This document shows positions 4,427-28,908 of a DNA stretch of 32,378 nucleotides, one piece after another; the first letter of the stretch is position 1; each line of letters begins with the position of its first letter. A model generated the notes under the pieces. The model saw only the letters and a program-made list of their open reading frames with translations. It searched no databases and was not told the origin of the DNA. The translations under genes and the position numbers were made by a program. The stretch lies in NCBI GenBank assembly GCA_016931775.1, contig JAFGEC010000286.1:1-32378 (forward strand). Reading direction: 5' to 3'. This DNA comes from Candidatus Zhuqueibacterota bacterium. Its GTDB lineage: Bacteria > Zhuqueibacterota > Zhuqueibacteria > Residuimicrobiales > JAFGEC01.

Positions 4427-4458
4427 GTATGTTATATTTTTTTGAAAATATAGCACGC

Positions 4459-8457: not shown

Positions 8458-8462
8458 ATAGG

Positions 8463-8490
8463 TTGTGAAAAATTTTAAAAGTCCTATATT
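8463..8490 (+). promoter_or_regulatory. putative sigma70-type promoter for the DUF362 gene
   Basis: TTGTGA at 8463-8468 and TATATT at 8485-8490 are separated by 16 bases, just downstream of the second PorU-like gene and about 42 bases before the chosen start at 8532. Four of six and five of six bases match the TTGACA/TATAAT consensus. No terminator is visible in the 8458-8531 gap, so readthrough from the peptidase genes is equally possible. The region is AT-rich, which makes chance matches likely. Confidence 0.35.
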
Positions 8491-8531
8491 ATTAAAAAAG
8501 ATGTTGGTAATATAAAATGAAGGTGCTTCGG

Positions 8532-9842
8532 ATGCTGAATTTGATAAAAAGAAGACATTTTTTAAAAGGAGTGGGGGGAATGATCGGCTATTTAGCTGTG
8601 CATTCTACATTCGCAGGAAACCTGGATGTTTCGCGGGTCGTCATTGTAAAGGATGAAAAGGTTCTTGATGACCGGAACAGAATTCAGCCCGAAATCCTAC
8701 AGACCATGATGGACGCCGGTATATGCGCCGTCACCGGACAGGAGAATGTGGGCAAGGCGTGGGGCAGTTTGTTTCCCGGGCTGACAAGTGAAAAAATTAT
8801 TTCAATCAAGGCGAGTTGTCTCAACAGTCAGCTTTCAAGTCATCCGGAAGTGGCTCAAAGCATTATAAACGGTCTTGTACAACTGATTGTGGACGGAAAA
8901 TCATTTCCGGAAAATAATATTATTATTTGGGACCGTACTGACGGAGATTTGCGTAACGCCGGATATACCATAAATACATCTTCCAACGGCGTGCGATGTT
9001 ATGGTACAAACAATTCAAAAGGTGGATTGACATCTCAATCCTTCAATATCGCCGGATCAAATCAAAAGCTGAGTAAAATTTTGACCGAGCAGACGGATTA
9101 TTTGATCAATTTTAGTGCTTTAAAAAATCATGGAATGTCGGGTGTGACCTTGAGTATGAAAAATCATTATGGCAGTGTGAACAATCCCGGTGGCTTGCAT
9201 GGCGGAAACTGCGATCCGTACCTCGCGGCTTTAAATAATGTGTCTTTTATCCGCGATAAACAGGTGATAAATATCTGTGATGCTGTTTTCGGTATTGTTT
9301 CCGGAGGCCCGGGCGGCCGGCCACAGGTTACGCCAAAAAGTTTGATTTTTAGCACTGATACTGTTGCCCATGATTATATCGGTATGCAAATGCTGAAGGA
9401 CTACGGCATGGGAAGCGGTTCCGTCAGCCGAGCCAGTCATATTAAAACAGCCGCGTCGTCAGCGTATAATCTGGGCACCGACGATCCGGATAAAATACAA
9501 GTCTTTTCTATCGAAAATCCGGTTTCCGGCGTGGATATAAAAAAAGTAAAAGACCGGTATCCATCCGAATTTATGCTGGAAAGTAACTATCCCAACCCGT
9601 TTAATCCGCATACGACCGTGCCTTTTCATTTGCAGAGGGCTGCCGACATAAAACTGGAAATTTTTGACATGACCGGCAAGAGGATCAGCGTATTGGCGCA
9701 GGGATACCATTCTGCAGGATCCTATGAAGCGGTTTGGAATGGTTTATCGGAATACGGCAGCGTCGTCAGCAGCGGCACTTATATCTGCCGATTGCAAGCC
9801 GGAAAGCGAATACAATCCATAAAAATGCAGCTTTTAAAATAA
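8532..9842 (+). CDS. DUF362 domain protein with Tat signal and T9SS type A sorting domain
   Basis: ATG 8532 is chosen over ATG 8517 because an AAGGTG ribosome binding site (8520-8525) stands six bases before it and would lie inside the longer frame. The 436-residue protein begins with a twin-arginine signal, KRRHFLKG (R7-R8) followed by a hydrophobic stretch ending near AVHSTFAG. The body (about 35-335) has DUF362 hallmarks: NFSALKNHGMSGVTLSMKNH, a GGNCDP segment and the DAVFGIVSGGPGG loop. The last 90 residues (from about 347) are a type A sorting domain with NYPNPFNPHTT, a DMTGKRI turn and a GTYICRLQAG strand. The biochemical role of DUF362 proteins is not established; some occur fused to ferredoxin-like domains. 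Tat export suggests folding or cofactor loading in the cytoplasm before outer-membrane secretion. It follows the putative sortases on the same strand. Confidence 0.82.
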   Translation: MLNLIKRRHFLKGVGGMIGYLAVHSTFAGNLDVSRVVIVKDEKVLDDRNRIQPEILQTMMDAGICAVTGQENVGKAWGSLFPGLTSEKIISIKASCLNSQLSSHPEVAQSIINGLVQLIVDGKSFPENNIIIWDRTDGDLRNAGYTINTSSNGVRCYGTNNSKGGLTSQSFNIAGSNQKLSKILTEQTDYLINFSALKNHGMSGVTLSMKNHYGSVNNPGGLHGGNCDPYLAALNNVSFIRDKQVINICDAVFGIVSGGPGGRPQVTPKSLIFSTDTVAHDYIGMQMLKDYGMGSGSVSRASHIKTAASSAYNLGTDDPDKIQVFSIENPVSGVDIKKVKDRYPSEFMLESNYPNPFNPHTTVPFHLQRAADIKLEIFDMTGKRISVLAQGYHSAGSYEAVWNGLSEYGSVVSSGTYICRLQAGKRIQSIKMQLLK

Positions 9843-9843
9843 T

Positions 9844-10665
9844 TCAATCAAACCACTCAACAGGATCACATCCGTAATAGTCCTCCAGCACCCGGTACAG
9901 TTCCGGGTGTTTGTTTTTTAATGCCCAGGGTCTTTCAAAAAACAATTCTGTGACGACGGCAAAAAATTCCGCCGGATTCACACTGCCGTATTCATCGATG
10001 ACATGATCGAGATTATGCTGTAATGCCAAAAGTAATTTTTTGTATTCTCTTTGAAAAACTTTTACCCAAATTGCATAGCCTCCCGGTTTTAGAATCGGAG
10101 CGCCGTCCGCTTCACCATCTTCCTGATCCAGTTGATGGGCAAACTCGTGGTAAACCACATTATGTCCATCCATATGTTCCACAGCACCGTGTTTTGCATG
10201 ATCCCAGGCAAGAACCAGATCACCCCTGGTCCAGGATTCGCCTAATCGCGCGATTTCTTCGGTAACAATTTTACCAAAGCCGTCATTTCTTTTCGCCTTA
10301 TATGCCGATGGATACACCAGAATGGTTTTCAACCGTGGATAAAAGGTCGGATTGGGATTATTGACCAGCAGCAGACAAGCCTGGGCGGCTATGGTCACGC
10401 GCATTTCATCACTCACATCCTGACCACCGCAGCCCTCAAATTTTTTTTCCGCCAGGAAAACGAGTATGTATTGGTGCAGTGTTTTTTGAATTTCCGGCGG
10501 TAATTTGGAATAAAGTGAAATGTTACTTTCTAAAATTGAAATCCATATGACGGGAAATGGCTCCGACATGATTTTTTTTCGTCTGGCGGAGCGATATTTT
10601 TGTAAAAGATATGGGAACAAAAGCACAAGCAAGGCGACAAGACCAATAATAATAAATGGAAACAT
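9844..10665 (-). CDS. mtfA: MtfA-like zinc metallopeptidase (M90 family), membrane-anchored
   Basis: 273 residues. The zinc-binding HEFAH motif lies at H173-E174-x2-H177 inside VVYHEFAHQLDQEDG, and a downstream NPAEFFAVVTELFFE segment (229-243) supplies the likely third ligand, E233. Both are hallmarks of the MtfA/M90 peptidase family. Residues 2-21 form one hydrophobic segment followed by basic YRSARRKK, so the domain is probably tethered to the inner membrane facing the cytoplasm; E. coli MtfA lacks such an anchor. In E. coli, MtfA binds the glucose-PTS repressor Mlc and has aminopeptidase activity; that partner is not implied here. The ATG at 10665 has GGAG seven bases upstream. The gene starts 14 bases after the lhr stop on the same strand, so the two are probably one transcript. 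Its 3' end faces the DUF362 gene with a single base between stop codons. Confidence 0.85.
   Translation of the reverse strand: MFPFIIIGLVALLVLLFPYLLQKYRSARRKKIMSEPFPVIWISILESNISLYSKLPPEIQKTLHQYILVFLAEKKFEGCGGQDVSDEMRVTIAAQACLLLVNNPNPTFYPRLKTILVYPSAYKAKRNDGFGKIVTEEIARLGESWTRGDLVLAWDHAKHGAVEHMDGHNVVYHEFAHQLDQEDGEADGAPILKPGGYAIWVKVFQREYKKLLLALQHNLDHVIDEYGSVNPAEFFAVVTELFFERPWALKNKHPELYRVLEDYYGCDPVEWFD
9889..9919 (+). terminator. rho-independent terminator for plus-strand transcripts, inside the convergent mtfA-like gene
   Basis: CACCCGG (9889-9895) pairs with CCGGGTG (9903-9909) across a 7-base loop and is followed by TTTGTTTTTT (9910-9919). It lies 47 bases past the DUF362 stop, within codons of the last 25 or so residues of the minus-strand mtfA-like gene (HPELYRVLE region). 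Orientation fits only plus-strand termination, since the U-tract lies on that side. The two genes are one base apart, so there is no other place for a terminator. Confidence 0.55.
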
Positions 10666-10679
10666 AAAAATACTCCAAA

Positions 10680-13600
10680 CTAATTTTCAGCACCCGAAGG
10701 CCATAGAACAATTTTGTTTCTCTCCCGTTCATACCCCGTATTCAATAATATTTGGGTTAGTTTTTCCACATCCTGTCTGATACCGTTAATTTCCGAAATT
10801 TCGATTCTATTTTTCGGTCTTGTTCCGGGAGGCAATTTGAGCCATACTTTGAGCGCGTCTGCGATCGGATGATTCATTTCCGGCCGGTAGTTTTCGGTCA
10901 ACCAGAGCCTGGAAAAATTTTCACTATAAAGTATTATTTTGTCATATTTTAATATAATATGGTTGTTTGGTGAACGGGTTACGGATATTTTCTGTTTCTG
11001 CTGATCCGACAGATTCCAGTCCACCATTCCGCCGAACGGCAATGCCGGATCGATCGTACTGAGCAATGTCATCCCCCCGGGTATAATTGGTTTTGTCTTG
11101 TGAGAATCCTGTATTATCTCAACGGCCTGATGCGTCGCAAATTGTACGCCGGATAATCCTTTAACAAAATAACCCCGCCTTATCTTTCCCTGCCATTCCA
11201 GCCGTTTCAAGATTTTAAAAATTTCATACCAGGGCAAAAAGCCGTTTTCTTTGCGGTAAAATTCTTTGACCAGAATACCGTACCTGTTTAGCAAAATATA
11301 TGCCTGCTGTTCAGCTTTGGTTTCCTCAGGACACGTGCGGCCCATAACGGCAAAGCTCGTTGTCAGAAACCAGTGGCTGGTGAGTAGATTGGCCGCAAAT
11401 TTGAGATTTCTGTGCTTTGTTTGCACCCAAAGCCGGCGTCCCGTTGCGCCGGAGCTGAAGGGCCGGGGCGTTTTGTTCGAGACGTTACGTGTTTGCAGTA
11501 CGTGAAAAAAAGAAAAATAATCGTCACATGAAACAAGGCCGTTAGAAACCAGGGCCTGGAGACCTTGCACTGTCTGTGAAAGAAGTAAATTTGTACCGTC
11601 CCGGATGTCCTGTAATGGACTTTTTCCGTTTTCTTTGAGAAAAAGATATATTGCTTTGGCATCGTGATTTTCCCGCATCAAGTCCGTCTCGTTGATATCC
11701 AAAATTGTGTTGGTTTTTGTCTTCAAACCGGATTGGTCGAGTAGAAAGGCGCCATTACCGCGTTTCATAAGAGATATGTTGACCTTGCCGGAATTCTGGG
11801 GATGGGCACAAAGAATAAACCGGCCTTCAGCAATTTTATTTGTGAATTCTTCAATATCGGTTCCCGTGCGCGGCCGCAAAATTTCACGTTCGAAAATTTT
11901 TTCAGGTAATTGTAACCCCTGATATTTTTCCAGTAGATTTAAAAGATCGGATTTCCCGCCGTTGAGAAAGTGCCATTGTCGTAGAAACCGAAAAAAAATC
12001 GCCCTGTCAGCCGGTTTCTGGGTTTCGCGGCGGATTGAAACTGCGCGCCTATAAAGAAAGGCAAAGTTTTGACGGTCACAATAAAGTTCCTGATCCACGC
12101 CGACCAAGAGGCGGCCTTTTACAATCTGCTTTTTCTGCAGGAGCTGCTCGAGAACGGGTAAAAGTTTTTCCGGTGAAGCCGAAAGATCAGTCCCCGTCTG
12201 ATCTAATGAACGGGGGCCTCGAATCCGGAGATAAGCTGTTACAAGTGCATTCAGGTGTTCCGTTGTTCGCTGCTCCCGGAACAGGGATTTCTTTTCGACG
12301 TTTATCCAGCCGACCGGAATCCTTTCTATTCTTTTATCCTGGGACAGTTTTTCCAGCATTTGTTGCATATTTTCCGGACAGCGTTCCGCCAGATTTTTTT
12401 CATCCACCGGACCCAATTGATCGATGACCTGAAACATGTCCTCTGTGTGCTTGATCCGGCGTTCCGGTGTTAAAAACTGCCATACGTTTTCAGCCTGTTC
12501 CACAATATCGGCTGTTACGAGAGTCGGGATGGATTCCTTGGATAATATTTCAGCCAGCAGTTCGCTGCTCACATCGGCTGCGGTCCCCGCCGCTCTATAC
12601 TGATCGTATTCATACATGTTTTCCGCCAGAAACCGGAATAAAAGTCCCGATGCCATGGGCGAGGGGAAAGTCGTATCAACCAAATGCAACCGGATTTTTT
12701 GATGGTGGATGTCCCGGCAAATTTTCTCCAGATTTGCCAGATCAAAAATATCCTGCAAGCATTCCCGGTATGTCTCTACCAGTATGGGGAAATCTTTAAA
12801 CTCACGCACAACCTGCAAGAGATCAGATGAACGAAGACGTTGAAGCCACAGTGGAATACGTTTATCCAATCGGGAGCGTTGCAACAGCAGGGCCCGGACG
12901 GCGTTCTGCCGGAAACGAATGGCAAAAAGCGGTGTTTTGTCTATATTCTCTATCAAGATTTGTCGAACATCAGTATGCCGCTCAGACAGTATTTTTATTA
13001 TTGGTATTTTTTCTGTGGTGTCCAACAGGCGCAGGATAAAGCCGTCATCATCATAGGAATACTGAACCTGAACCTTATAATCCCGTTCTATAACGGCCGC
13101 CACAATTATGGCCCACGCGCCGTTTATCCGCCCTCCGAAAGGCGCATGTATGATGATTTGTGGTTCGTCGGATTCGTCCTTAAATCTTTCAATTACCACT
13201 GTTTTATCCGTTGGAATAGCTTGGGTTTTTTCCGATTGACGGATAAAGTACTCCTGAATATTTGCCGCTATGGCCAGATCGGCCTGGCAGACGCCGGTCA
13301 ACCAGGCCGTTGCCGTTCCGTCTTTTATTTTTTGAAAAAGCTGTCCCCGAAAAGCGCCGATTTCACGGCTGGTTGATAAATCTCTATACAGTAAATCACC
13401 TTTCCAGAACGGTGCTTTTGGTTTTGTCGATTTGAGCGGAGTGACCATAATACGGTCCCGGGTGATATCCGTGATTTTCCATTCATTGCTGCCAAGGAAA
13501 AAAACTTCTCCAACCTTGGATTCAAATACAAATTCCTCCTCCACATCACCGATTCGTGTATTATCCCCTTGAAGATAGACACCATAATATGCACGATCGG

Positions 13601-19409: not shown

Positions 19410-19443
19410 TTGACATCAATAAATATTTTATATACATTATATA
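19410..19443 (+). promoter_or_regulatory. putative operon promoter with overlapping palindromic operator
   Basis: TTGACA (19410-19415) and TACATT (19433-19438) are 17 bases apart, 47 bases upstream of the TetR start codon. A 15-base inverted repeat, TATATA-CAT-TATATA (19429-19443), overlaps the -10 element. TetR-family repressors commonly bind palindromes of this size over their own promoter, so autoregulation of the whole operon is a reasonable inference. The repeat is pure AT apart from one C, which lowers its specificity. Confidence 0.45.
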
Positions 19444-19484
19444 CGAATATTGTAATTTTATACCATTTTCGTAAGAAATGTCCG

Positions 19485-20057
19485 ATGATAGATAAAAAGT
19501 TTCAGCAAATTGTGCGTGCAGCAACAGAGCTGTTTCAGCGCCACGGTATTCGACGGATTACTGTTGAGGAAATCTGCAGGAATGCAATGGTCAGCAAAAT
19601 GACTTTTTACAAGTATTTCAATAACAAGACAGACCTGGTTAAATATATCGTGAATGATCTCATGGATCGGGCTGTGGATTTGTACAAAAACATAATCCAA
19701 AGCGACCTTCCGTTTTCGGAAAAAGCGGCCGAAATTTTTAAAATGAAAATATCCCAGTCGGAACTATGGGGTGAGGAATTTGTTAAAGATTTTATACATG
19801 CGGACCCAGAACTGGAGGTGGTGGTGCAGAAACGAATGGCGGAAATCAGCCGCCTGGTTTATGAGGATTTTAGGATCGCTCAGGACCGGGGTGAGATTCG
19901 CAAGGATATCAAGCTGGAGCTAATTCTCTATCTCATGAACCACCTGCGCGAACTGATTCAGGACCAAGGGATAATCCAGCTGTATCCCAATCATATTGAA
20001 ATGATCAGAGAATTAATCACCTTCTTTTTTTACGGAATTGTCGAGCCGTCAAAATGA
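19485..20057 (+). CDS. TetR/AcrR-family transcriptional regulator
   Basis: 190 residues. The N-terminal helix-turn-helix (about 1-50) is canonical: IVRAATELFQRHGIRRITVEEI then VSKMTFYKYFNNKTDLV. The C-terminal half is helical and variable, as expected for a ligand-binding and dimerisation domain. The frame is open back to a GTG at 19380, but that would add 35 hydrophobic residues ahead of a complete TetR fold and would start upstream of the predicted promoter, so ATG 19485 is chosen. No clear ribosome binding site precedes it. The stop overlaps the start of the barrel gene by four bases (ATGA). First gene of an envelope-transport operon, it most likely represses that operon and responds to a lipid or other hydrophobic substrate; the ligand is not deducible. 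Confidence 0.88.
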   Translation: MIDKKFQQIVRAATELFQRHGIRRITVEEICRNAMVSKMTFYKYFNNKTDLVKYIVNDLMDRAVDLYKNIIQSDLPFSEKAAEIFKMKISQSELWGEEFVKDFIHADPELEVVVQKRMAEISRLVYEDFRIAQDRGEIRKDIKLELILYLMNHLRELIQDQGIIQLYPNHIEMIRELITFFFYGIVEPSK

Positions 20058-21172
20058 AAAAGATATTTACATTTATTGTTCTTTTTATATCTACGGCCTT
20101 TTGCCGGGAATTTAATCATAAAGGGCAGGTTTCTGGGTGGGGACTTTATGCCGACAAGCAGGTGAGTATAGGGTGCCGTTATATTCCCAGCGTTTTTTTT
20201 GCTTCGGAGATCGGCGGACAGTGGAGTCTGGATAGTGAAATCGCCGCGAAATCTTTTTACGTACAGCAGGGTTTATCACTTTCAAGCCTGCGACCGGATC
20301 ATGACATCTCCCCCTACCGTTTTTGGATCCGTTTAACCTCCAATCAATTTGAGGCGCGTGTGGGATTGCAAAAGATCAATTTTGGTGCCGCAAAATTGCT
20401 CCGACCGTTGATGTGGTTCGATCGTATCGACCCGCGCGATCCGCTGCAACTCACCGATGGCGTTTATGGTCTGTTGTGCAGATATTATTTTCTCAATAAT
20501 GTCAATGTATGGATGTGGGGTTTGATGTATAATAACGAACCGAAAGGAATGGAAATACTCGGAACGGAAAAAAATACGTTAGAATACGGAGGCCGGCTGC
20601 AATTTCCGGTGTCCGGTGTGGAACTTGGGATGACCCTGCATCGACGGAAAGCGGATCCGAACAACATGATCGACATACCGCTTCTATCGTTGGGCACGTT
20701 TTTTGAAAATCGGTTTGCCTTCGATGCCCGGATGGATGTGGGTGTGGGATTGTGGGTTGAAGGCGCTGTGAGCCATTACGATCACGACCTGATATTGATA
20801 CCCTACCGGTATGTGCAGCAGGCCGTGTTGGGCGGTGATTATACGGTCGAATTGGGGAACGGTTTGACTGTTCTGGCGGAACATTTCGTGCAAAATGTCA
20901 CCGATAAAATACTTGACAAAAAATTGACCTACAGCTTTTCCGCAATGTCTTTAAATTATCCTTTGACGATTTTAGATTATTTCGCCGGTATGGTATTCTA
21001 TGATTGGACGGAAAAAAATATATACCGGTTTTTATATTGGCAGCGAACGTACGACTTTTGGAATTTTTACCTGTTTGGATTCTGGAATTCCGAACAAGGC
21101 CTTTTGAACGACACCCTTTCATCAGCCATGCTGGGTAAAGGTGTACAGGTTATGCTGGTATTTAATTACTAA
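20054..21172 (+). CDS. Predicted outer-membrane beta-barrel protein of the ABC/LolA-like operon
   Basis: 372 residues with a Sec signal peptide (MKKIFTFIVLFISTAFC, cut near residue 17). The rest is rich in alternating aromatic/hydrophobic strands (FWIRLTSNQFEARVGLQKINFG, VNVWMWGLMYNN, WNFYLFGFWNSEQ) and ends in an aromatic residue (VMLVFNY), all typical of an outer-membrane barrel. The segment GLQKINFGAAKLLRPLMWFDRIDPRDP resembles the strand-loop seen in porin-like barrels of the DUF1302 type, where a similar motif precedes DP(R). I cannot assign a family with certainty. It overlaps the TetR gene by four bases and lies 14 bases before the ABC ATPase gene, so it is likely the outer-membrane endpoint of that transporter. 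The alternative is an unrelated porin carried in the same transcript. Confidence 0.7.
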   Translation: MKKIFTFIVLFISTAFCREFNHKGQVSGWGLYADKQVSIGCRYIPSVFFASEIGGQWSLDSEIAAKSFYVQQGLSLSSLRPDHDISPYRFWIRLTSNQFEARVGLQKINFGAAKLLRPLMWFDRIDPRDPLQLTDGVYGLLCRYYFLNNVNVWMWGLMYNNEPKGMEILGTEKNTLEYGGRLQFPVSGVELGMTLHRRKADPNNMIDIPLLSLGTFFENRFAFDARMDVGVGLWVEGAVSHYDHDLILIPYRYVQQAVLGGDYTVELGNGLTVLAEHFVQNVTDKILDKKLTYSFSAMSLNYPLTILDYFAGMVFYDWTEKNIYRFLYWQRTYDFWNFYLFGFWNSEQGLLNDTLSSAMLGKGVQVMLVFNY

Positions 21173-21186
21173 ACGTGGGAAAAATT

Positions 21187-21900
21187 ATGGAAAACGACAT
21201 TTTAATCCAAACCAAAGATTTGGTGAAAATTTACCCTATGGGTAGTCAGGATCTGGTGGCGCTGGAGAAAGTTAATTTAACCTTTAAAAAGGGTGAATTT
21301 GCAGCTCTTGTGGGCCCGAGTGGATCGGGTAAAACAACGTTGTTGAATATTATCGGATCGTTGGATACTCCTACAAGAGGCAGCGCCATCGTTATGGGGC
21401 TAGAAGTGGAAAAATTGTCTCATAAAAAATCCGCGGAGTTGCGCAACAAACATATCGGATTCATCTTTCAAACCTTTAATTTACTGCCGGTGTATACGGT
21501 TTATGAAAATGTTGAATTTCCGCTTTTGCTCAGCGATGTACCGGCTTCGGAACGGAAGCAGCGTGTCATGCAGGCGCTTGAATGGGTTAAACTGGCCGAC
21601 CGCCACCGTTCAAAACCCAATCAGCTGTCCGGGGGGCAAAGCCAGAGAGTTGCGGTTGCCAGGGCTATTGTAAAAATGCCGTCAATTGTACTGGCGGATG
21701 AGCCGACTGCCAATCTGGATGCAGAAAACTCCCATAATGTCATGCAAATTATGGAAGGATTGAACAAAGAATTGGGTATGACCTTTATATTTTCCACCCA
21801 TGATGAAAAGGTCGTACAGTATATGCGGCGTATAATCTCACTGGACGACGGCAGGGTGGCAAAAGATGAATTTGTTAAATCCGTAAAAAAGAGGGTATAA
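21187..21900 (+). CDS. ABC transporter ATP-binding protein, LolD/MacB type
   Basis: 237 residues from ATG 21187, preferred over GTG 21175 because GGGA (21177-21180) stands six bases upstream as a ribosome binding site. Motifs are complete: Walker A GPSGSGKTT (43-51), Q-loop IFQTFNLLP (93-101), signature LSGGQSQR (147-154), Walker B SIVLADEPT (166-174), D-loop NLD, and H-loop H205 in STHDE. The FNLLPVYTVYENVEFPL stretch is characteristic of the LolD/MacB/FtsE group, which powers mechanotransmission by FtsX-type permeases rather than moving substrate through a membrane channel. Two such permeases follow immediately. LolD itself extracts lipoproteins from the inner membrane; the downstream LolA-like gene makes a Lol-type role attractive. 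Confidence 0.93.
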   Translation: MENDILIQTKDLVKIYPMGSQDLVALEKVNLTFKKGEFAALVGPSGSGKTTLLNIIGSLDTPTRGSAIVMGLEVEKLSHKKSAELRNKHIGFIFQTFNLLPVYTVYENVEFPLLLSDVPASERKQRVMQALEWVKLADRHRSKPNQLSGGQSQRVAVARAIVKMPSIVLADEPTANLDAENSHNVMQIMEGLNKELGMTFIFSTHDEKVVQYMRRIISLDDGRVAKDEFVKSVKKRV

Positions 21901-21902
21901 AA

Positions 21903-23078
21903 ATGTTAATGTTCAAACTCGCTCTTCGAAATATACTTGGTGCCGGGCTTCGCACATGGTTGAATGTCATCGTGCTGTCGTTTTCTTTTGTAGCGATTAT
22001 TTACATGCAGGGAATTTATGATGGCATGCAGGACCAGGCTTCCCAGGCAGAGATACAATTTGCTTACGGCGGCGGACAATACTGGCATGCGGCATACGAT
22101 CCGTATGATCCGTTTAGTTTGCAGGATAGCCATGGAAAAATCGCCCCGGAACTGCAGGATAAAATAAATGACGGAGAGGCAACGCCTGTTTTAATTGTAC
22201 AGGGTTCCATGTATCCGAACGGGCGACTTAAACCTGTACTGCTGAAAGGCATTGATCCGGCTCAAAAGACTGTGGCTATTCCAAGTGCTGTCCTGGCAAA
22301 AGAAAAGGATGCCATACCGGCGCTGATCGGTGCGCGTACCGCACGGAACAGCGGCTTAAAGATCGGCGACTATGTCACCATTCGGTGGCGGGACGCCAAC
22401 GGGACTTTTGACGCCCAGGAAGTCAAGATTATGGAGATTATGAACACCCTGGTGCAATCCATAGATAACGGTCAGATCTGGATGCCTCTGGAGCAGTTGA
22501 GGCAGCTTTCGGGTATGCCCGACGAGGCCACACTGGTTATTCTGGGGCAGGAGACCGATTCTCCGGCACAGGTTTCCCTGGGCTGGGTTCATAAAGATAT
22601 GGATTTTTTACTCAAGGACTTGAAACAGCTTGTAAAAACCAAGACCATCGGCGCTTCGGTTATGTATATCGCATTGCTCCTGCTGGCAATGCTGGCTATT
22701 TTTGATACCCAGGTATTATCCCTCTTCAGACGGCGTAAAGAGATCGGTACTCTTGTGTCATTGGGAATGACCCGAGTCCAGGTGATAAAGCTGTTTACAT
22801 TCGAGGGTGCCATGCACGGTATACTTGCTGCGGGTGTGGCCGCACTTTATGGGATTCCTCTGTTTATTTACAGTGCAAAAGCCGGATGGAAATTGCCCCA
22901 AGTGACAGAGGGATACGGTCTCTCAATCGGTCAAACCCTGTTTCCGGTTTTTGGCGCCGGACTTGTGGTTGGTACCATATTTCTGGTTATGATCACGGTG
23001 ACGATTGTCAGTTATTTACCCACACGGCGTATTTTGAAACTTAAACCGACAGACGCATTAAGAGGAAAAATGTCATGA
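21903..23078 (+). CDS. FtsX/MacB-type ABC transporter permease 1
   Basis: 391 residues. Topology is the type VII ABC pattern: one N-terminal membrane helix (about 20-37), a periplasmic domain (40-245), then three helices (250-272, 303-323, 346-372). The coupling segment RRRKEIGTLVSLGMT (277-291) is the FtsX-domain signature that contacts the ATPase. The periplasmic part contains LIGARTARNSGLKIGDYVTI, the usual MacB-PCD motif. ATG 21903 has GAGGG seven bases upstream; a second ATG at 21909 is also possible. It starts two bases after the ATPase stop and overlaps permease 2 by four bases. Two different permeases with one ATPase match the LolC/LolE heterodimer arrangement rather than a MacB homodimer. 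Confidence 0.88.
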   Translation: MLMFKLALRNILGAGLRTWLNVIVLSFSFVAIIYMQGIYDGMQDQASQAEIQFAYGGGQYWHAAYDPYDPFSLQDSHGKIAPELQDKINDGEATPVLIVQGSMYPNGRLKPVLLKGIDPAQKTVAIPSAVLAKEKDAIPALIGARTARNSGLKIGDYVTIRWRDANGTFDAQEVKIMEIMNTLVQSIDNGQIWMPLEQLRQLSGMPDEATLVILGQETDSPAQVSLGWVHKDMDFLLKDLKQLVKTKTIGASVMYIALLLLAMLAIFDTQVLSLFRRRKEIGTLVSLGMTRVQVIKLFTFEGAMHGILAAGVAALYGIPLFIYSAKAGWKLPQVTEGYGLSIGQTLFPVFGAGLVVGTIFLVMITVTIVSYLPTRRILKLKPTDALRGKMS

Positions 23079-24349
23079 TAAAATTTTTAATAAAAGGTCT
23101 GCTGCGCGATCGCTCAAAAAGTCTGTTTCCGGTGCTGACGGTAACGGCAGGTGTGACGCTGGTTGTGTTTGCTATCTGTTGGGTCGGCGGTGTGCAAACC
23201 AATATGATGAGTGCCAGCGCACATTTTCGAACCGGGCATGTTAAAATAATGACGCGGGCTTATGCTGAGCAGTCCGATTTGTTGCCAGTCGATCTGGCAC
23301 TGGTCGGTACGGATTCTTTACTTGGGCATTTGAAGGCAAGTTATCCGGGTATGATCTGGACGCAGCGGATTTTATTTGCCGGTTTGCTGGATGTTCCCGA
23401 TGAAAGTGGTGAAACGCGCGAACAGGGCACGGTAGCCGGTATTGCAATCAGTGTTTTGGATCCCGGCAGTCCGGAACATAAGTTTTTGGAAATGGAAAAA
23501 TCCATCGTTCGTGGACGTATGCCGCAAAAATCCTATGACTGCCTGATCAGCGAAACCTTTGCTCAAAAGTTAAAAGTTAATCCGGGGGATGAGGTAACAC
23601 TGATCGGCTCCACGATGTTCGGTGCCATGTCCATGACGAATTTCACTGTTGCCGGCACGGTTCGGTTTGGAATTTCGGCTTTAGACCGCGGCGCTCTGAT
23701 TGCGGATATAACCGACGTCCAAACGGCGCTGGACATGGATAACGGTGCCAGTGAAATACTGGGTTTTTTTACCGATGACATTTATCACCGTGAAAAAGCC
23801 GTGGACCTGGCCGAACAGTTTAATATAAAAAACACTGATCCTGACGGCGAATTCTCACCGGTGATGCTTGCACTGGAACAACAGGAGGGTTTAGCCGGTA
23901 TGCTGGATATGGTTGGTATGATGTCAAGTGTGATCATTACTATTTTCATAGTCGTCATGTCCATTGTACTTTGGAATGCCGGACTCATGGGCAATATCCG
24001 CCGTTATGGTGAAATTGGTGTTCGCCTAGCCATGGGAGAAGCAAAAGGTCACTTGTATCGAAGCTTGCTGTTGGAAGCGTTCGCCATAGGAATATTCGGG
24101 TCATTGATCGGCACGGTGTTGGGTTTAATTGTTTCTTTTTATTTGCAATATCACGGAATCGATATCACAAGTTTTTTAAAGGATTCCACAATCATGCTGC
24201 CGGACGTTATGCGGGCACGAGTGACATCGTCAGCCTATTTTATCGGATTTTTACCCGGTGTTTGTGCCACTTTTTTGGGCGCGGCGATTTCGGGAATTGG
24301 TGTATATAAACGGCAAACGTCACAATTGTTCAAGGAGCTTGAGGTATGA
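23075..24349 (+). CDS. FtsX/MacB-type ABC transporter permease 2
   Basis: 424 residues with the same topology as permease 1: N-terminal helix (about 17-39), periplasmic MacB-PCD-like domain (about 45-285, including LISETFAQKLKVNPGDEVTLI), and three C-terminal helices. The coupling segment is NIRRYGEIGVRLAMGEAKG. The N-terminal GHVKIMTRAY after helix 1 is reminiscent of LolE/LolC-like permeases (GHIxI motif). It overlaps its neighbours on both sides by four bases (ATGA), so expression is translationally coupled to permease 1 and to the LolA-like carrier. The two permeases are clearly different in sequence, which supports a heterodimer with a distinct partner surface on each. Confidence 0.88.
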   Translation: MIKFLIKGLLRDRSKSLFPVLTVTAGVTLVVFAICWVGGVQTNMMSASAHFRTGHVKIMTRAYAEQSDLLPVDLALVGTDSLLGHLKASYPGMIWTQRILFAGLLDVPDESGETREQGTVAGIAISVLDPGSPEHKFLEMEKSIVRGRMPQKSYDCLISETFAQKLKVNPGDEVTLIGSTMFGAMSMTNFTVAGTVRFGISALDRGALIADITDVQTALDMDNGASEILGFFTDDIYHREKAVDLAEQFNIKNTDPDGEFSPVMLALEQQEGLAGMLDMVGMMSSVIITIFIVVMSIVLWNAGLMGNIRRYGEIGVRLAMGEAKGHLYRSLLLEAFAIGIFGSLIGTVLGLIVSFYLQYHGIDITSFLKDSTIMLPDVMRARVTSSAYFIGFLPGVCATFLGAAISGIGVYKRQTSQLFKELEV

Positions 24350-25074
24350 AAAGTCTATTATTTTTGCTGGTTCCTGTTTTTGCCTTTGCTCAAGTACCAT
24401 CGGGTGAGGAGATATTAAAAAAGGTCGATGAAAACAGCTGGGCAAAGACCCGTATTTTTACATCCAAAATGATCGTACAGGGCCGGCGGGCCACGCGAAC
24501 CATAACGTCCAAATCGTGGGTCAAGGGTGATGAGGCCGCGTTTACCGAATACCTTGCACCGGCACGGGAAAAAGGTATCAAAATGCTTAAAATGGAGGAC
24601 CAACTGTGGACGTATTCTCCGCAGACCGACAGGATTATCCGTATCTCCGGACATATGCTGCGCCAGTCGGTTATGGGTTCAGATCTTTCATATGAAGATA
24701 TGATGGAAGATGCCGAAATTGTAAAAAAATATGATGCAAAAGTTGAGGGATCGGAAGTTGTATTGGACTGTGAGTGCTGGGTTCTTCTGCTTTCAGCAAA
24801 GGACAAAGATGCGGCATATCAATCAAGAAAAGTGTGGGTCGATAAGGAAAGATATATTATTTTAAAGGAAGAGAGATATGCTAAAAGCGGTAAATTGTTG
24901 AAACGAACAGAGATACTAAGCGTGCGCCGCATGGGCGGCCGCTGGGTTGCCGGTGAGATTCTGTTTAGGGATTTATTAAAAAGCGGTAAGGGTACAAAGT
25001 TTATCATAGAATCAGTGGAATACAATGCGGATATTCCGGATTATATTTTTTCAAAGGCTTCCTTGCGCAAATAA
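24346..25074 (+). CDS. LolA-like periplasmic carrier (outer-membrane lipoprotein-sorting protein family)
   Basis: 242 residues with a signal peptide (MKSLLFLLVPVFAFA|Q, 15 residues). Features of the LolA_like family are visible: PSGEEILKKVDENSW near the mature N-terminus, RTITSKSWVKGDEAAFTEYLAPAREKG, then LWTYSPQTDRIIRIS and MGSDLSYEDM. The order matches the open half-barrel that carries a lipid moiety in LolA/LolB. Proteins of this family often accompany RND-type lipid exporters; here the partner is a MacB/Lol-type ABC transporter with overlapping genes. Likely role: accept a lipid or lipidated substrate from the permease pair and deliver it to the outer membrane or the barrel. The stop overlaps the start of the pseudouridine synthase gene by one base (TAATG). 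Confidence 0.87.
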   Translation: MKSLLFLLVPVFAFAQVPSGEEILKKVDENSWAKTRIFTSKMIVQGRRATRTITSKSWVKGDEAAFTEYLAPAREKGIKMLKMEDQLWTYSPQTDRIIRISGHMLRQSVMGSDLSYEDMMEDAEIVKKYDAKVEGSEVVLDCECWVLLLSAKDKDAAYQSRKVWVDKERYIILKEERYAKSGKLLKRTEILSVRRMGGRWVAGEILFRDLLKSGKGTKFIIESVEYNADIPDYIFSKASLRK

Positions 25075-26048
25075 TGAATAAAGAAAAAGTTTTACAATTT
25101 GAAATAACCGACGGTCAGCAGAAGATGCGGTTGGATCTGTTTTTAGCCGCAAGATTACCATCCGTAACCCGGGCAAAAATAAAACGGCTTATTGATGAAA
25201 ATTATGTAACCCTCGGTGGTGAACCGTGCAAAGCCGGGCATATCATACGTCCCGGTGAGCTGGTAACCGTTTATTTTCCGATTGTAAAGATTGATCATAT
25301 TGAGCCGGAAGACATTCAACTTGATATCATTTATGAAGATGAGTCACTTTTGGTTGTCAATAAGCCACCGGGTCTGGTGGTGCATCCCGCTTATGGTAAT
25401 ATGAGCGGAACGCTGGTCAATGCCCTTATGGCTCATTGTAAAAATCTTTCAAGCGTTGCAGGCGACAAACGCCCCGGACTGGTACACAGGCTTGACAAGG
25501 ATACTTCGGGACTTTTGGTTGTGGCCAAGGATGATGTGACACATGTTGAATTATCCCGGCAATTATCGCAACGAAAAATCGAGCGTGAATATCGGGCAAT
25601 TGTTTGGGGACACTTGAAAAAGAAAACCGGTACGATTGCGGCATCGTTGGCCCGGAGTCCCAAGGATCGCACCAAAATGCAAATCAACGAGGACGGGAAG
25701 CATGCTGTAACCCATTATGAACTGGTAAAAAAGTTTCATCTCATGAGTTATGTAAAACTTTATCTTGAAACCGGCCGTACCCATCAGATTCGCGTTCATA
25801 TGGCGTCAATCGGGCATCCGGTTTTCTCCGATAAAACATATGGCGGTCGTGGGCACCAGCTGGCCGGCAGGAATCACGAGGACACAATACTGATAAAAGA
25901 ATTCTTAAAAAAATATGACCGGCAGATGCTCCATGCGCGTTCTTTGGTATTTGTGCATCCGCAGCGAAAGGAGCTTGTCCGTTTCGATTCGCCGTTGCCG
26001 GCGGATATGCAAATGCTCATACAAGACCTTGAAACCGCCTCAGTGTAA
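25074..26048 (+). CDS. rluD: 23S rRNA pseudouridine synthase, RluA/RluD family
   Basis: 324 residues. An N-terminal S4 RNA-binding domain (about 17-65: MRLDLFLAARLPSVTRAKIKRLI) precedes the catalytic domain (from about 85). Signature HRLDKDTSG is at 138-146 with catalytic Asp D141; VNKPPGLVVHP (95-105) and RTHQIRVHMASIGHP are the other family motifs. Length and domain order fit RluD, which modifies helix 69 of 23S rRNA, but RluA-family specificity cannot be read from sequence alone. Its ATG overlaps the LolA-like stop (TAATG), so it is transcribed with the transport operon although functionally unrelated; a housekeeping gene at the end of a TetR-controlled operon may need its own promoter. 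None is obvious in the preceding coding sequence. Confidence 0.92.
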   Translation: MNKEKVLQFEITDGQQKMRLDLFLAARLPSVTRAKIKRLIDENYVTLGGEPCKAGHIIRPGELVTVYFPIVKIDHIEPEDIQLDIIYEDESLLVVNKPPGLVVHPAYGNMSGTLVNALMAHCKNLSSVAGDKRPGLVHRLDKDTSGLLVVAKDDVTHVELSRQLSQRKIEREYRAIVWGHLKKKTGTIAASLARSPKDRTKMQINEDGKHAVTHYELVKKFHLMSYVKLYLETGRTHQIRVHMASIGHPVFSDKTYGGRGHQLAGRNHEDTILIKEFLKKYDRQMLHARSLVFVHPQRKELVRFDSPLPADMQMLIQDLETASV

Positions 26049-26232: not shown

Positions 26233-27954
26233 ATGAACAGTTCACGTACACAATCATTTTTAGTTTATGTCTGGATTCTTGCCGGTGTATTAATATTTTT
26301 TATTATGTTTTTTTTCAGCAACGGATACGCCAGACAAAGAGATCAATTTAAAGGATTATCCGAGTATGAAAGAGAGGTTGTTCAGGAGTCTGAGGAGCGT
26401 TACCTGGCAAACCGGGAAATGTCGCCCTTACGTTTTAACGGCGATGCGGTTATCGAGAAAAGCGAATATATACACGGTGATGTGGTTGTAATGAAAGGTA
26501 CGCTGCTTGTTGCCGGTGAAATTGACGGTAACATCGTTGCAATATTTGGTGATGTTGATTTACAGGAAACGGCCATTGTTTCCGGTGATGTGGTGAGTGT
26601 TGAAGGCAAAATCTGGCGACGAACCGGTGCCTCTGTATCGGGTGATATCGTAGAAACCGACGCTCCTGAAGATCTAACCGGGGGCAGGAATCAGCGGCGG
26701 GTTTACCGTGGCATGCAAGGCAGTGATGACGATGATAGACGGACACCCCGAGTGGTTAGAAAACGCATGAGGGAATATGAAGAAGATGAGATGGAGCCCT
26801 GTTGGATGGACTATACCCGGGTGGACGGATTGACACTGGGGCTTAAAAGTCCGGAGCGCGAATGGTGGCAAGATCATCATCACAGTTTTGCTATACTGGG
26901 TAGGGGCGGATATTCTTTCGCATCGAAAAAATGGCAATATCAGGTCGGTCTGGAGCGCAGTTTGTCTTATGATTATATTTTTTCTTTTGGAGCCGAGTAC
27001 CACAATATGACGGATACCCAGGACCGGTGGATTATCAGCGATCATGAGAACGCTCTGGCTGCGCTTCTGATCAAAGAAGATTTTCGCGATTATTATCACC
27101 GTGAAGGTTATAGTTTTTATGCTATTCAAAAATTGTCCGCCGATATTAATATCCGAGGCGAATACCGCTCAGATGCCTTTAATAATCTGCTGGAAAATAA
27201 GGCGTCTTGGTCTATGTTCGGAAAAAAGAAAAAATTCGGTATCAATCCTTACGCCATCCCACCGGTGGGAGATGTGGAAAACGATTTTTATGCACCCGCA
27301 ATGGACATTCAAAGTATTGCCGCCACATTTACCATTGACACACGTGACAGCCGGAAAAATCCCACACGCGGCTGGTACATACAAGCTTTTGGTGAGCGCG
27401 CAGGATATGAGTTGAAAAGCGATATGGAATTTCAACGTTTTATTCTTGATATTCGCAAGTACCAACCGCTGGGCTGGGATGAAAATTTTAACTTCCGGCT
27501 TCGGGGCTGTACGGCAACGGGACTGCTGCCACCTATGTACTGGTACGATCTCGGCGGATTATCCACACTGCGCGGCTACCGTCACAAGTCCTTTACCGGC
27601 GATCGAATGCTTCTCGGCAACGTGGAATACGTTCTACACACGGATAATACCAACCTGTTTATTCTGGATGACTTTAATATCATTCTGTTCGTGGATTCGG
27701 GTTGTGCCTGGTTTGCCGATGCAGATACGCCAAATAAAATGACTCGCTGGCCGGTTGAAGACACGGAACAGGTTGAGGCAAACGAAGTACCGCCTGAAGA
27801 CAGCTTTGAAACCATTACATGGTCAAGCTTGAAAACCAATGTAGGTATCGGGCTGGCAAGCCGTGACGGTGGTTTTCGGGTGGATTTTGCCAAATCCACG
27901 GAAAGAGGTGAAAACGATTATTACATAACCTTGCGGTTCCAGCATCCGTTCTAG
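26233..27954 (+). CDS. Beta-solenoid (bactofilin-like) domain fused to an Omp85/BamA-type outer-membrane barrel
   Basis: 573 residues. The signal region has a hydrophobic core (about 10-28) and a cut site near NGYA|RQR. Residues about 70-140 are short repeats with hydrophobic periodicity (YIHGDVVVMKGTLLVAGEI, DGNIVAIFGDVDLQ, AIVSGDVVSVEGKI, ASVSGDIVETD), typical of polymer-forming/bactofilin-like or other right-handed beta-solenoids. A charged linker (about 140-190) leads to a barrel whose landmarks fit the Omp85 superfamily: DTRDSRKNPTRGWY, LGGLSTLRGYRHKSFTGDRM (the conserved RGY element), a DSG strand, SSLKTNVGIGLASRDGGFRVDFA, and the C-terminal strand YYITLRFQHPF ending in Phe, a BAM recognition signal. 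No POTRA domains are seen, so the solenoid occupies their place. Function may be membrane insertion, translocation or a structural surface link; none is established. A 7-base spaced ribosome binding site supports ATG 26233. Confidence 0.8.
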   Translation: MNSSRTQSFLVYVWILAGVLIFFIMFFFSNGYARQRDQFKGLSEYEREVVQESEERYLANREMSPLRFNGDAVIEKSEYIHGDVVVMKGTLLVAGEIDGNIVAIFGDVDLQETAIVSGDVVSVEGKIWRRTGASVSGDIVETDAPEDLTGGRNQRRVYRGMQGSDDDDRRTPRVVRKRMREYEEDEMEPCWMDYTRVDGLTLGLKSPEREWWQDHHHSFAILGRGGYSFASKKWQYQVGLERSLSYDYIFSFGAEYHNMTDTQDRWIISDHENALAALLIKEDFRDYYHREGYSFYAIQKLSADINIRGEYRSDAFNNLLENKASWSMFGKKKKFGINPYAIPPVGDVENDFYAPAMDIQSIAATFTIDTRDSRKNPTRGWYIQAFGERAGYELKSDMEFQRFILDIRKYQPLGWDENFNFRLRGCTATGLLPPMYWYDLGGLSTLRGYRHKSFTGDRMLLGNVEYVLHTDNTNLFILDDFNIILFVDSGCAWFADADTPNKMTRWPVEDTEQVEANEVPPEDSFETITWSSLKTNVGIGLASRDGGFRVDFAKSTERGENDYYITLRFQHPF

Positions 27955-28056
27955 TTTACGGAACAAAGTTACGATTTATGCGTAAACCGACTAGATGTAT
28001 ATTTGAAAGGGAGGACGATCAGTTTTCCCTTTGTTCATTCAATCAGGGAGGAAAAC

Positions 28057-28908
28057 ATGATTCGAAAATTTCGATACGTATTTTTGTTATTGTTGCTTTT
28101 TGGGGTTTCCAGCCGGGCTGAAAAAGTGACCATCGATCAACTCTACCCCATTAAGGGTGAACTCTTCAAGCTCACGCTCAAGATTGACGGCGGAGAAGTG
28201 GAAGTTAGCAGGGGAAATCGAGCCCGCGAGTGCTTTTTATATGTGGAATATAACAGCGAGCGGATCGAAACGGATGTACGTTTTCATGAAAACACGGATG
28301 AATTACTGGTAAAGCTGGATATCAAAGATCTGGGCTTTTGGAAAAAGGAAAATAAAGACCGTTCATGGACTGCAAAAGTAAAAATCGAGTTACCGACCGA
28401 TCCGGACATAGATTTACGAACCGAAATTAAAGCCGGTGAAACGAAGCTTGATCTCGGTGATCTGCATATACAAAATTTTATTCTTAAAAACTGGGCCGGA
28501 GAAGTGGAAGTGAATTTTGATCGCCCGAACCTAACGAAAATGAACATTTTCGATGTGAGCGTCAAGGTGGGTGAGATGCGTCTGCGTAATCTGGGTAATG
28601 CCAATTTTGAGGAAGGTGATATTAACGGCGGGATCGGTGAAATGGCCGTTGATTTCAGCGGCTCTGCATTTAAACGTTCCATGGCCAGGATCGATTTGGA
28701 TGTGGGTGAAACCACCATCGTACTGCCACGGCAGGCCGGTGCAAAACTCAAAGTCAGCAAATTTTCGTTTCTCTCCAGTGTTGAATATCCAAACTGGTTT
28801 GAAAAACGAGGTAAATATTATTATTCTGAAAATTATGAAAATGCCGACCAGTCTATTTTTCTCATGATCTCTTCGGGTATTGGAGAATTAAATATAAGGG
28901 TGAATTAA
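28057..28908 (+). CDS. Exported repeat protein with LiaF/toastrack-like (DUF4097-like) beta fold
   Basis: 283 residues from ATG 28057, which has GGGAGGA five bases upstream; the frame is open to TTG 28003 but that start would precede the signal peptide (MIRKFRYVFLLLLLFGVSSRA). The mature part is built of recurring Gly-Glu strands about 20-25 residues apart: AGETKLDLG, AGEVEVNFD, VGEMRLRNLG, IGEMAVDFS, VGETTIVLP and IGELNIRV. The spacing and the VGETTIVLPRQAGAKLKV stretch are reminiscent of the LiaF C-terminal and DUF4097 toastrack folds, which are scaffold-like right-handed beta structures. No catalytic residues stand out. It follows the solenoid-Omp85 gene by 102 bases with a shared terminator downstream, so a joint envelope role is likely. 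Family assignment is by pattern only. Confidence 0.65.
   Translation: MIRKFRYVFLLLLLFGVSSRAEKVTIDQLYPIKGELFKLTLKIDGGEVEVSRGNRARECFLYVEYNSERIETDVRFHENTDELLVKLDIKDLGFWKKENKDRSWTAKVKIELPTDPDIDLRTEIKAGETKLDLGDLHIQNFILKNWAGEVEVNFDRPNLTKMNIFDVSVKVGEMRLRNLGNANFEEGDINGGIGEMAVDFSGSAFKRSMARIDLDVGETTIVLPRQAGAKLKVSKFSFLSSVEYPNWFEKRGKYYYSENYENADQSIFLMISSGIGELNIRVN

Follow-up and report, generated by a model that had tools for sequence, protein, structure and literature searches.

What is carried by an operon that joins an outer membrane barrel, an ATP-binding cassette (ABC) transporter, and a LolA-like carrier, and how is it controlled? The question is raised by positions 19410 to 25074 of a 32,378-nucleotide contig (JAFGEC010000286.1, here called the window) from the Candidatus Zhuqueibacterota assembly GCA_016931775.1. 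In this span, a promoter is followed by six co-directional genes encoding a TetR regulator, a barrel, a LolD-like ATPase, two distinct FtsX permeases (FtsX1 and FtsX2), and a carrier of the PF17131 family. Our analysis suggests that the operon probably encodes an exporter, repressed by TetR, that moves a hydrophobic small molecule or lipid across the envelope; it would resemble AmeABCD but use a type VII ABC motor. We infer the repression, the formation of a complex, the direction of transport, and the class of substrate from the evidence given below.

All six open reading frames (ORFs) are present on the forward strand, with the order and junctions described by an earlier examination of the letters alone (the sequence-only reading). 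The regulator gene (19485 to 20057; TetR_N, PF00440, E = 1e-13) overlaps the barrel gene (20054 to 21172) by 4 bases, and overlaps of the same length join FtsX1 (21903 to 23078) to FtsX2 (23075 to 24349) and FtsX2 to the carrier gene (24346 to 25074; LolA_like, PF17131, E = 1.7e-56). The ATPase gene (21175 to 21900; ABC_tran, PF00005, E = 3e-35) ends 2 bases short of FtsX1 and starts at GTG 21175 or ATG 21187, leaving behind the barrel a gap of 2 bases or the 14 bases reported previously. The TetR ORF can be extended upstream to 19380; since the promoter and operator described below fall inside this extension, its start is almost certainly ATG 19485.

Are these genes a unit or accidental neighbors? 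In a set of 82 genomes from the phylum, 39 have a close relative of FtsX1, 40 have one of the carrier, and 41 have one of the barrel, with all three present in 36 (phi coefficients of 0.83 to 0.93 for their co-occurrence), although these counts are blurred by incomplete contigs and depend on mechanical ORF choices in which a few overlapping ORFs masked real genes. Where the co-occurrence breaks down, the locus is nearly always at the end of a contig or the genome is incomplete. About 30 loci from many families of the phylum keep the order (TetR)-barrel-ATPase-FtsX1-FtsX2-carrier, while the flanking genes vary on both sides; because the gene order is conserved across genomes, a chance grouping is excluded. 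The same operon was also found in metagenome-assembled genomes of Candidatus Aminicenantes, whose carriers nest inside the window clade in two places, and in two cultured strains of Persicobacter (Bacteroidota), where it is carried by megaplasmids and shows identities to the window proteins of 33 to 34% for the barrel, 57 to 61% for the ATPase, 44 to 46% for the permeases, and 45 to 48% for the carrier. Overall, the operon is conserved over at least three bacterial phyla and is a real unit, as the sequence-only reading had supposed in grouping the barrel and the carrier with the ABC genes. It is present in only about half of the 82 genomes, a patchy distribution of the kind expected for an accessory function.

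Several individual arrangements were also observed. The Persicobacter operons are found on plasmid pPP1 of Persicobacter psychrovividus (locus L198, NZ_AP025293.1, 7884 to 25017, with the operon at 7428 to 13049 of the locus) and in Persicobacter sp. JZB09 (CP012852.1), and neither is accompanied by gene annotation in PLSDB. The flanks sampled in relatives are unrelated and without a common theme, encoding a GH3 protein, an M23 peptidase, a dehydrogenase, a TolC-type outer membrane efflux protein (OEP), and MlaD. Relatives of one family have two additional genes behind the carrier, a second TetR gene and an outer membrane gene (L082, 3755 to 6133; L093, 930 to 2985; L087; L106), the latter gene being confirmed as TolC/OEP in L082 and L093. 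At another locus (L089, G063:C7, 2787 to 10974), the carrier gene stands behind an mla-like cluster (MlaD, ATPase), apart from a divergent FtsX2-FtsX1-ATPase group, with the barrel on a different contig; this arrangement is a possible hint that the cargo could be a phospholipid-like molecule.

The carrier, a periplasmic protein with a signal peptide, was modeled with AlphaFold2 (AF2) from six sequences as a LolA-type half-barrel, with a predicted local distance difference test (pLDDT) score of 79.5. Its best matches in the PDB, with template modeling (TM) scores of 0.72 to 0.79, were 9tp6 (Porphyromonas gingivalis LolA3; 0.77), 3buu (NE2245), 4z48 (DUF1329; 0.78), and 3bk5, a LolA3/DUF1329 fold, compared with about 0.4 to 0.5 for classical LolA and about 0.3 to 0.4 for RseB/MucB. 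The LolA3 protein of P. gingivalis has a hydrophobic groove, lacks the arginine of LolA, and binds LolB very weakly (PMC13103446), and the deletion of lolA3 in Flavobacterium johnsoniae gave no phenotype in the assays used (PMC11885536).

The barrel, of 372 residues with a signal peptide, is matched by no Pfam or NCBIfam model, and it was assigned as a DUF1302-like outer membrane beta-barrel from an AF2 model, Foldseek, and profile homology. The model, built from four sequences, has 18 beta strands at a pLDDT of 63 and a predicted TM score of 0.57, and Foldseek placed it with porins, OpdO, and the alginate exporter AlgE, which are general porin-like folds, as expected at this pLDDT. Its poorly modeled stretch, residues 107 to 136, coincides with the region of strongest conservation among these barrels (QKINFGSAxLLRPLMWFDRxDPRDPLQLTDGV) and may plausibly form an inward-folded loop. 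In profile-profile comparison, the window-type barrels matched the DUF1302-like barrels linked to resistance-nodulation-division (RND) pumps with a probability of 97.4 (E = 9e-12, 243 columns), against 0.2 for reversed-alignment controls; an earlier comparison with a small RND set had been weak (86%). Profiles of the RND-linked barrels recovered 30 of the 33 window-type barrels at E < 1e-3 and matched no ORF other than such barrels. They also recovered the ABC-linked barrels of group B at E = 4e-31 or better, where the E values for groups B and C are somewhat favorable, as their membership lists came from an iterative search from which the window-type barrels stood apart, and two B loci that ORF calling had divided are counted in the small group C. 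By these comparisons, the window barrel is homologous to DUF1302-like barrels without being a member of PF06980 itself.

The pairing of carrier and barrel recurs with other motors. Three more PF17131 carriers were found in the same genome, each in an operon-like set with an outer membrane barrel and an MMPL/RND pump (G000:C12, locus L118, 1 to 5239; G000:C223, L119, 2947 to 7948; G000:C53, L120, 5531 to 10041). TetR-like genes head two of these three sets, one of them recognized by a truncated end alone. Across 44 sampled carrier loci (38 from relatives and six fetched earlier), 40 have a barrel adjoining the carrier, and the remaining four (L116, L158, L163, and L177) end at a contig edge. 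A motor was found in 41 of the 44, namely, an RND/MMPL pump, a two-permease ABC transporter (gene order carrier-FtsX-FtsX-ATPase-barrel), or an ABC transporter with apparently a single permease (three loci). The last three (L181, L187, and L188) hold the carrier, the barrel, and the ATPase with apparently one FtsX permease, a layout that resembles the single permease of Borrelia BBJ26/27. In the carrier tree, four types separate onto branches of their own, mostly well supported: the window carriers, those of the second ABC arrangement, those paired with RND pumps, and those with a single permease. Branches are long in the last of these and in two of the genome's own RND carriers. As judged from sequence comparison, carrier and barrel are homologous across the sets and the motor differs. 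It is an evenly balanced proposition that PF17131 carriers and DUF1302-like barrels form a general core for trans-envelope lipid transport into which different motors are plugged (RND, two-permease type VII ABC in two gene orders, and apparently single-permease ABC). On this view, the window operon would typify the branch that is driven by an ABC transporter and controlled by TetR, and the several sets of a single genome would each deliver a separate hydrophobic cargo to the outer membrane.

As for the motor of the window operon, both permeases contain PF02687 (FtsX) and PF12704 (MacB_PCD), and the hydropathy profile of FtsX1 has four hydrophobic segments with a large domain between the first and second transmembrane segments. 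The ATPase retains all expected motifs (Walker A GPSGSGKT, LSGGQ, Walker B, and the H-loop), and these features together are those of type VII ABC transporters. FtsX1 and FtsX2 are detectably related to each other (hhalign, 97.2, E = 3.4e-11). The best NCBIfam matches are LolD for the ATPase and lolCE for both permeases, but the scores lie under the equivalog cut-offs, at 236 bits against 308 for TIGR02211 (LolD) and at 57.9 and 45.0 bits against 362 for TIGR02212 (lolCE), and the carrier belongs to PF17131 rather than to PF03548. Elsewhere in the genome assembly (7.2 Mb, 713 contigs, 81% complete), we found an adjacent lolCE-type pair (G000:C650) that matches TIGR02212 over its full length with 345 and 335 bits, just below the cut-off, and a canonical PF03548 LolA (G000:C588). 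The operon was accordingly rejected as the housekeeping Lol transporter, and its independence from that system, which had been proposed from the sequence, is borne out. Two more FtsX permease pairs were observed in the genome (G000:C506, L190; G000:C336, L191), each with a neighbor of 367 to 394 residues; neither is lolCE or linked to a carrier.

How might the operon be regulated? A sigma-70-like promoter (TTGACA-17-TACATT, 10 of 12 positions matching) lies at 19410 to 19438 on the forward strand, and immediately 3' of its -10 element is a predicted 32-bp operator, TACGA-N22-TCGTA (19442 to 19473, forward strand), within a longer imperfect inverted repeat (19434 to 19481). In aligned upstream regions, the arms are conserved and the spacer has diverged, and a TTGAC-like element precedes the operator in most relatives. 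The operator was present at 9 or more of 10 bases, with the arms spaced by exactly 22, in 14 of the 33 operon upstream regions, a post hoc count, as the motif had been seen in the alignment beforehand; mononucleotide shuffles gave a mean of 0.24 loci and a maximum of 2. None of the 33 regions scored 9 or more of 10 at spacings of 12 to 21 or 23 to 25, and this specificity of spacing argues against a chance origin of the predicted motif. Twelve of the 14 regions belong to the 19 loci headed by a TetR gene, and in 16 loci the gene immediately preceding the barrel encodes a TetR orthologue (38 to 45% identity). The motif was not found at the Persicobacter operons, which fits their diverged regulator (27 to 28%). 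A wider TetR regulon was considered and dropped, as exact sites in the genome numbered 6 against 5 for a reversed-pattern control, that is, background. Since the operator lies at the regulator's own promoter and sites elsewhere in the genome are at background, the regulator seems to act locally, by autoregulation. The PF00440 helix-turn-helix and the predicted operator at its own promoter are those of a TetR-family protein, and binding to this operator, with repression of the operon, would follow the same pattern.

Taken together, these features suggest the following mechanism. TetR, bound to the 32-bp operator at the transcription start, would repress its own operon until a ligand, which is probably the substrate or a compound related to it, sets the protein free. 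The ABC transporter would then pull a hydrophobic molecule from the inner membrane at the expense of ATP. Among type VII ABC transporters, LolCDE extracts lipoproteins from the inner membrane (PMC8333309), and the extraction of hydrophobic molecules from that membrane has been proposed for YbbAP-TesA (PMC12646458). The carrier would cross the periplasm and unload at the DUF1302-like barrel, which would insert the substrate into the outer membrane or release it across that membrane. The sequence-only reading had envisaged a dedicated, inducible route for a lipid or lipidated substrate, in which the barrel replaces LolB as acceptor or exit. The route and the role of the barrel gain strength from the homologous RND-driven sets, AmeABCD, and the work on P. 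gingivalis LolA3, and inducibility gains from the conserved predicted operator; all three keep the status of likely interpretations. Some observations weigh against this mechanism. Most loci that lack an adjoining TetR gene have a weak operator or none, the barrel model is of moderate quality, and no linked biosynthesis genes pointing to a substrate were seen beside the sampled operons. In addition, the hairpin equivalent to the LolC Hook is present but falls about 4 residues short of its length in the LolC/E-type protein of the genome, in an alignment with that one Lol permease.

A second Lol-type route carrying lipoproteins would account for the best NCBIfam matches and for the two nonidentical permeases, which recall LolC and LolE, and lipoproteins are named as one possible ligand by the authors of the Borrelia BBJ23-29 study (PMC13078400). 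We nevertheless regard this route as unlikely. The carrier type makes it the less probable option, as PF17131 is nearest to LolA3/DUF1329 and not to LolA, and P. gingivalis LolA3 barely binds LolB (PMC13103446). Moreover, the three ABC subunits score far under the Lol equivalog cut-offs, no conserved lipoprotein gene was seen beside the operon in relatives, and the homologous carrier and barrel are paired with RND pumps, of which the relative AmeABCD handles small hydrophobic compounds (PMC6394551). That the operon is the housekeeping Lol transporter, or a set of accidental neighbors, is barely credible given the separate lolCE-type pair and LolA, the conserved synteny, and the co-occurrence; after testing, no point was left in its favor.

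Within the favored exporter reading, the operon could serve as an inducible clearance pump for toxic or misplaced hydrophobic compounds (solvents, terpenes, or lysolipids) rather than in building the envelope; as a special case, it shares part of the likelihood given to the exporter as a whole, and we hold it to be possible but somewhat doubtful. TetR autoregulation is typical of efflux, and the patchy presence of the operon is suggestive of an accessory function. AmeABCD, in turn, protects against monoterpenes (PMC6394551). Against this, no catabolic genes for such compounds were seen beside the sampled operons, and sequence alone does not separate detoxification from an envelope-lipid role. 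Quite improbable is a reading without transport, in which the ABC proteins would be a mechanotransmitter or sensor similar to FtsEX or Bce, the LolA-like protein a sensor of the RseB/MucB type, and the barrel an unrelated porin. The carrier does match MucB_RseB (PF03888, E = 4e-7), and some type VII ABC proteins do not transport (PMC12646458), but the RseB/MucB folds are far more distant from the carrier than LolA3 and DUF1329, the co-occurrence is strict, and the homologous carrier and barrel accompany RND pumps.

Other genes of the window were also inspected. The RluD gene (25074 to 26048), despite a 1-base overlap with the carrier stop, and the Omp85 gene (26233 to 27954) were rejected as members of the operon, as neither adjoins it in relatives. 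The latter encodes an Omp85-family barrel (PF01103) in an unusual combination, with a weakly bactofilin-like N-terminal stretch and no POTRA match, and it is followed by a gene for a LiaF-like protein (28003 to 28908). At the other end of the window, two adjacent, overlapping genes (422 to 4426 and 4423 to 8457) encode cysteine peptidases of the C25 (gingipain) type that have propeptides and FlgD-Ig tails. This pair suggests type IX secretion in the organism, and the C25 proteases and the sorting tails of the type IX secretion system are traits of the Fibrobacterota-Chlorobiota-Bacteroidota (FCB) type.

Outside Proteobacteria, little is known of how lipids other than lipopolysaccharide, and other hydrophobic molecules, reach the outer membrane through the periplasm. 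The PF17131/LolA3 carriers have been orphans, and the operon places such a carrier in a complete set (motor, carrier, outer membrane acceptor, regulator, and operator), thereby giving a candidate role for LolA3 of Bacteroidota. Persicobacter psychrovividus NBRC 101262 is a culturable strain with the whole set. New here are the conserved predicted operator and the three RND-driven sister sets. Of broader interest is the proposed common carrier-barrel core with exchangeable motors.

How does the operon compare with known systems? In the literature covered, mostly without subscription papers, no characterized system was found that pairs a DUF1302-like barrel with two permeases and is controlled by TetR, in agreement with the sequence-only reading; the further term "undescribed system", for which that reading put the operon forward as a candidate, was too strong. 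The combination of carrier, barrel, and pump is known with RND motors (PMC6394551, PMC10866462), and that of ABC transporter, LolA-like protein, and Omp85 barrel is known in Borrelia (PMC13078400). Among published systems, AmeABCD of Castellaniella defragrans and Borrelia BBJ23-29 stand nearest. AmeABCD comprises a DUF1302 protein, DUF1329/LolA superfamily proteins, and an HAE3 RND pump, and cells from which it has been deleted tolerate monoterpenes less well and accumulate more Nile Red (PMC6394551). AmeABCD and PP_0765/PP_0766/PP_2018/PP_2019 of Pseudomonas putida (PMC10866462) share with the window a DUF1302-type barrel (by profile homology), a LolA-superfamily periplasmic protein, and an inner membrane pump, where the link to AmeABCD draws on the families named in PMC6394551 and on profile and fold similarity rather than on direct comparison with the Castellaniella proteins. 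In contrast, the window motor is a LolCDE-like type VII ABC transporter with two permeases in place of the HAE3/MMPL RND pump, there is no second periplasmic protein (AmeC), and a TetR gene and an operator stand at the head.

Borrelia BBJ23-29 (PMC13078400, 2026), compared by its description, likewise brings together a type VII ABC ATPase, an FtsX-like permease, a LolA-like protein, and an outer membrane barrel in one cluster. Its barrel is of the Omp85 family without POTRA, whereas that of the window is DUF1302-like; its permease is a single homodimer; and it includes two tetratricopeptide repeat (TPR) proteins and an unknown gene, with no TetR described, whereas the window operon has no TPR gene. 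LolCDE-LolA-LolB shares with the window a LolD-like ATPase, two different FtsX permeases, and a LolA-fold carrier, and differs from it in the equivalog scores, far above those of the window, in a PF03548 carrier, and in LolB, where the window has a beta-barrel and TetR control. MacAB-TolC and YbbAP-TesA belong to the same type VII mechanism class, but the window lacks a MacA adaptor, TolC, and a TesA-like hydrolase, and its ATPase and permeases are separate genes. Finally, LolA3 of P. gingivalis, the closest solved structure to the carrier (9tp6), and LolA3 of F. johnsoniae were assigned no partner or function in the studies describing them (PMC13103446, PMC11885536), whereas the window carrier is accompanied by both a motor and a barrel.

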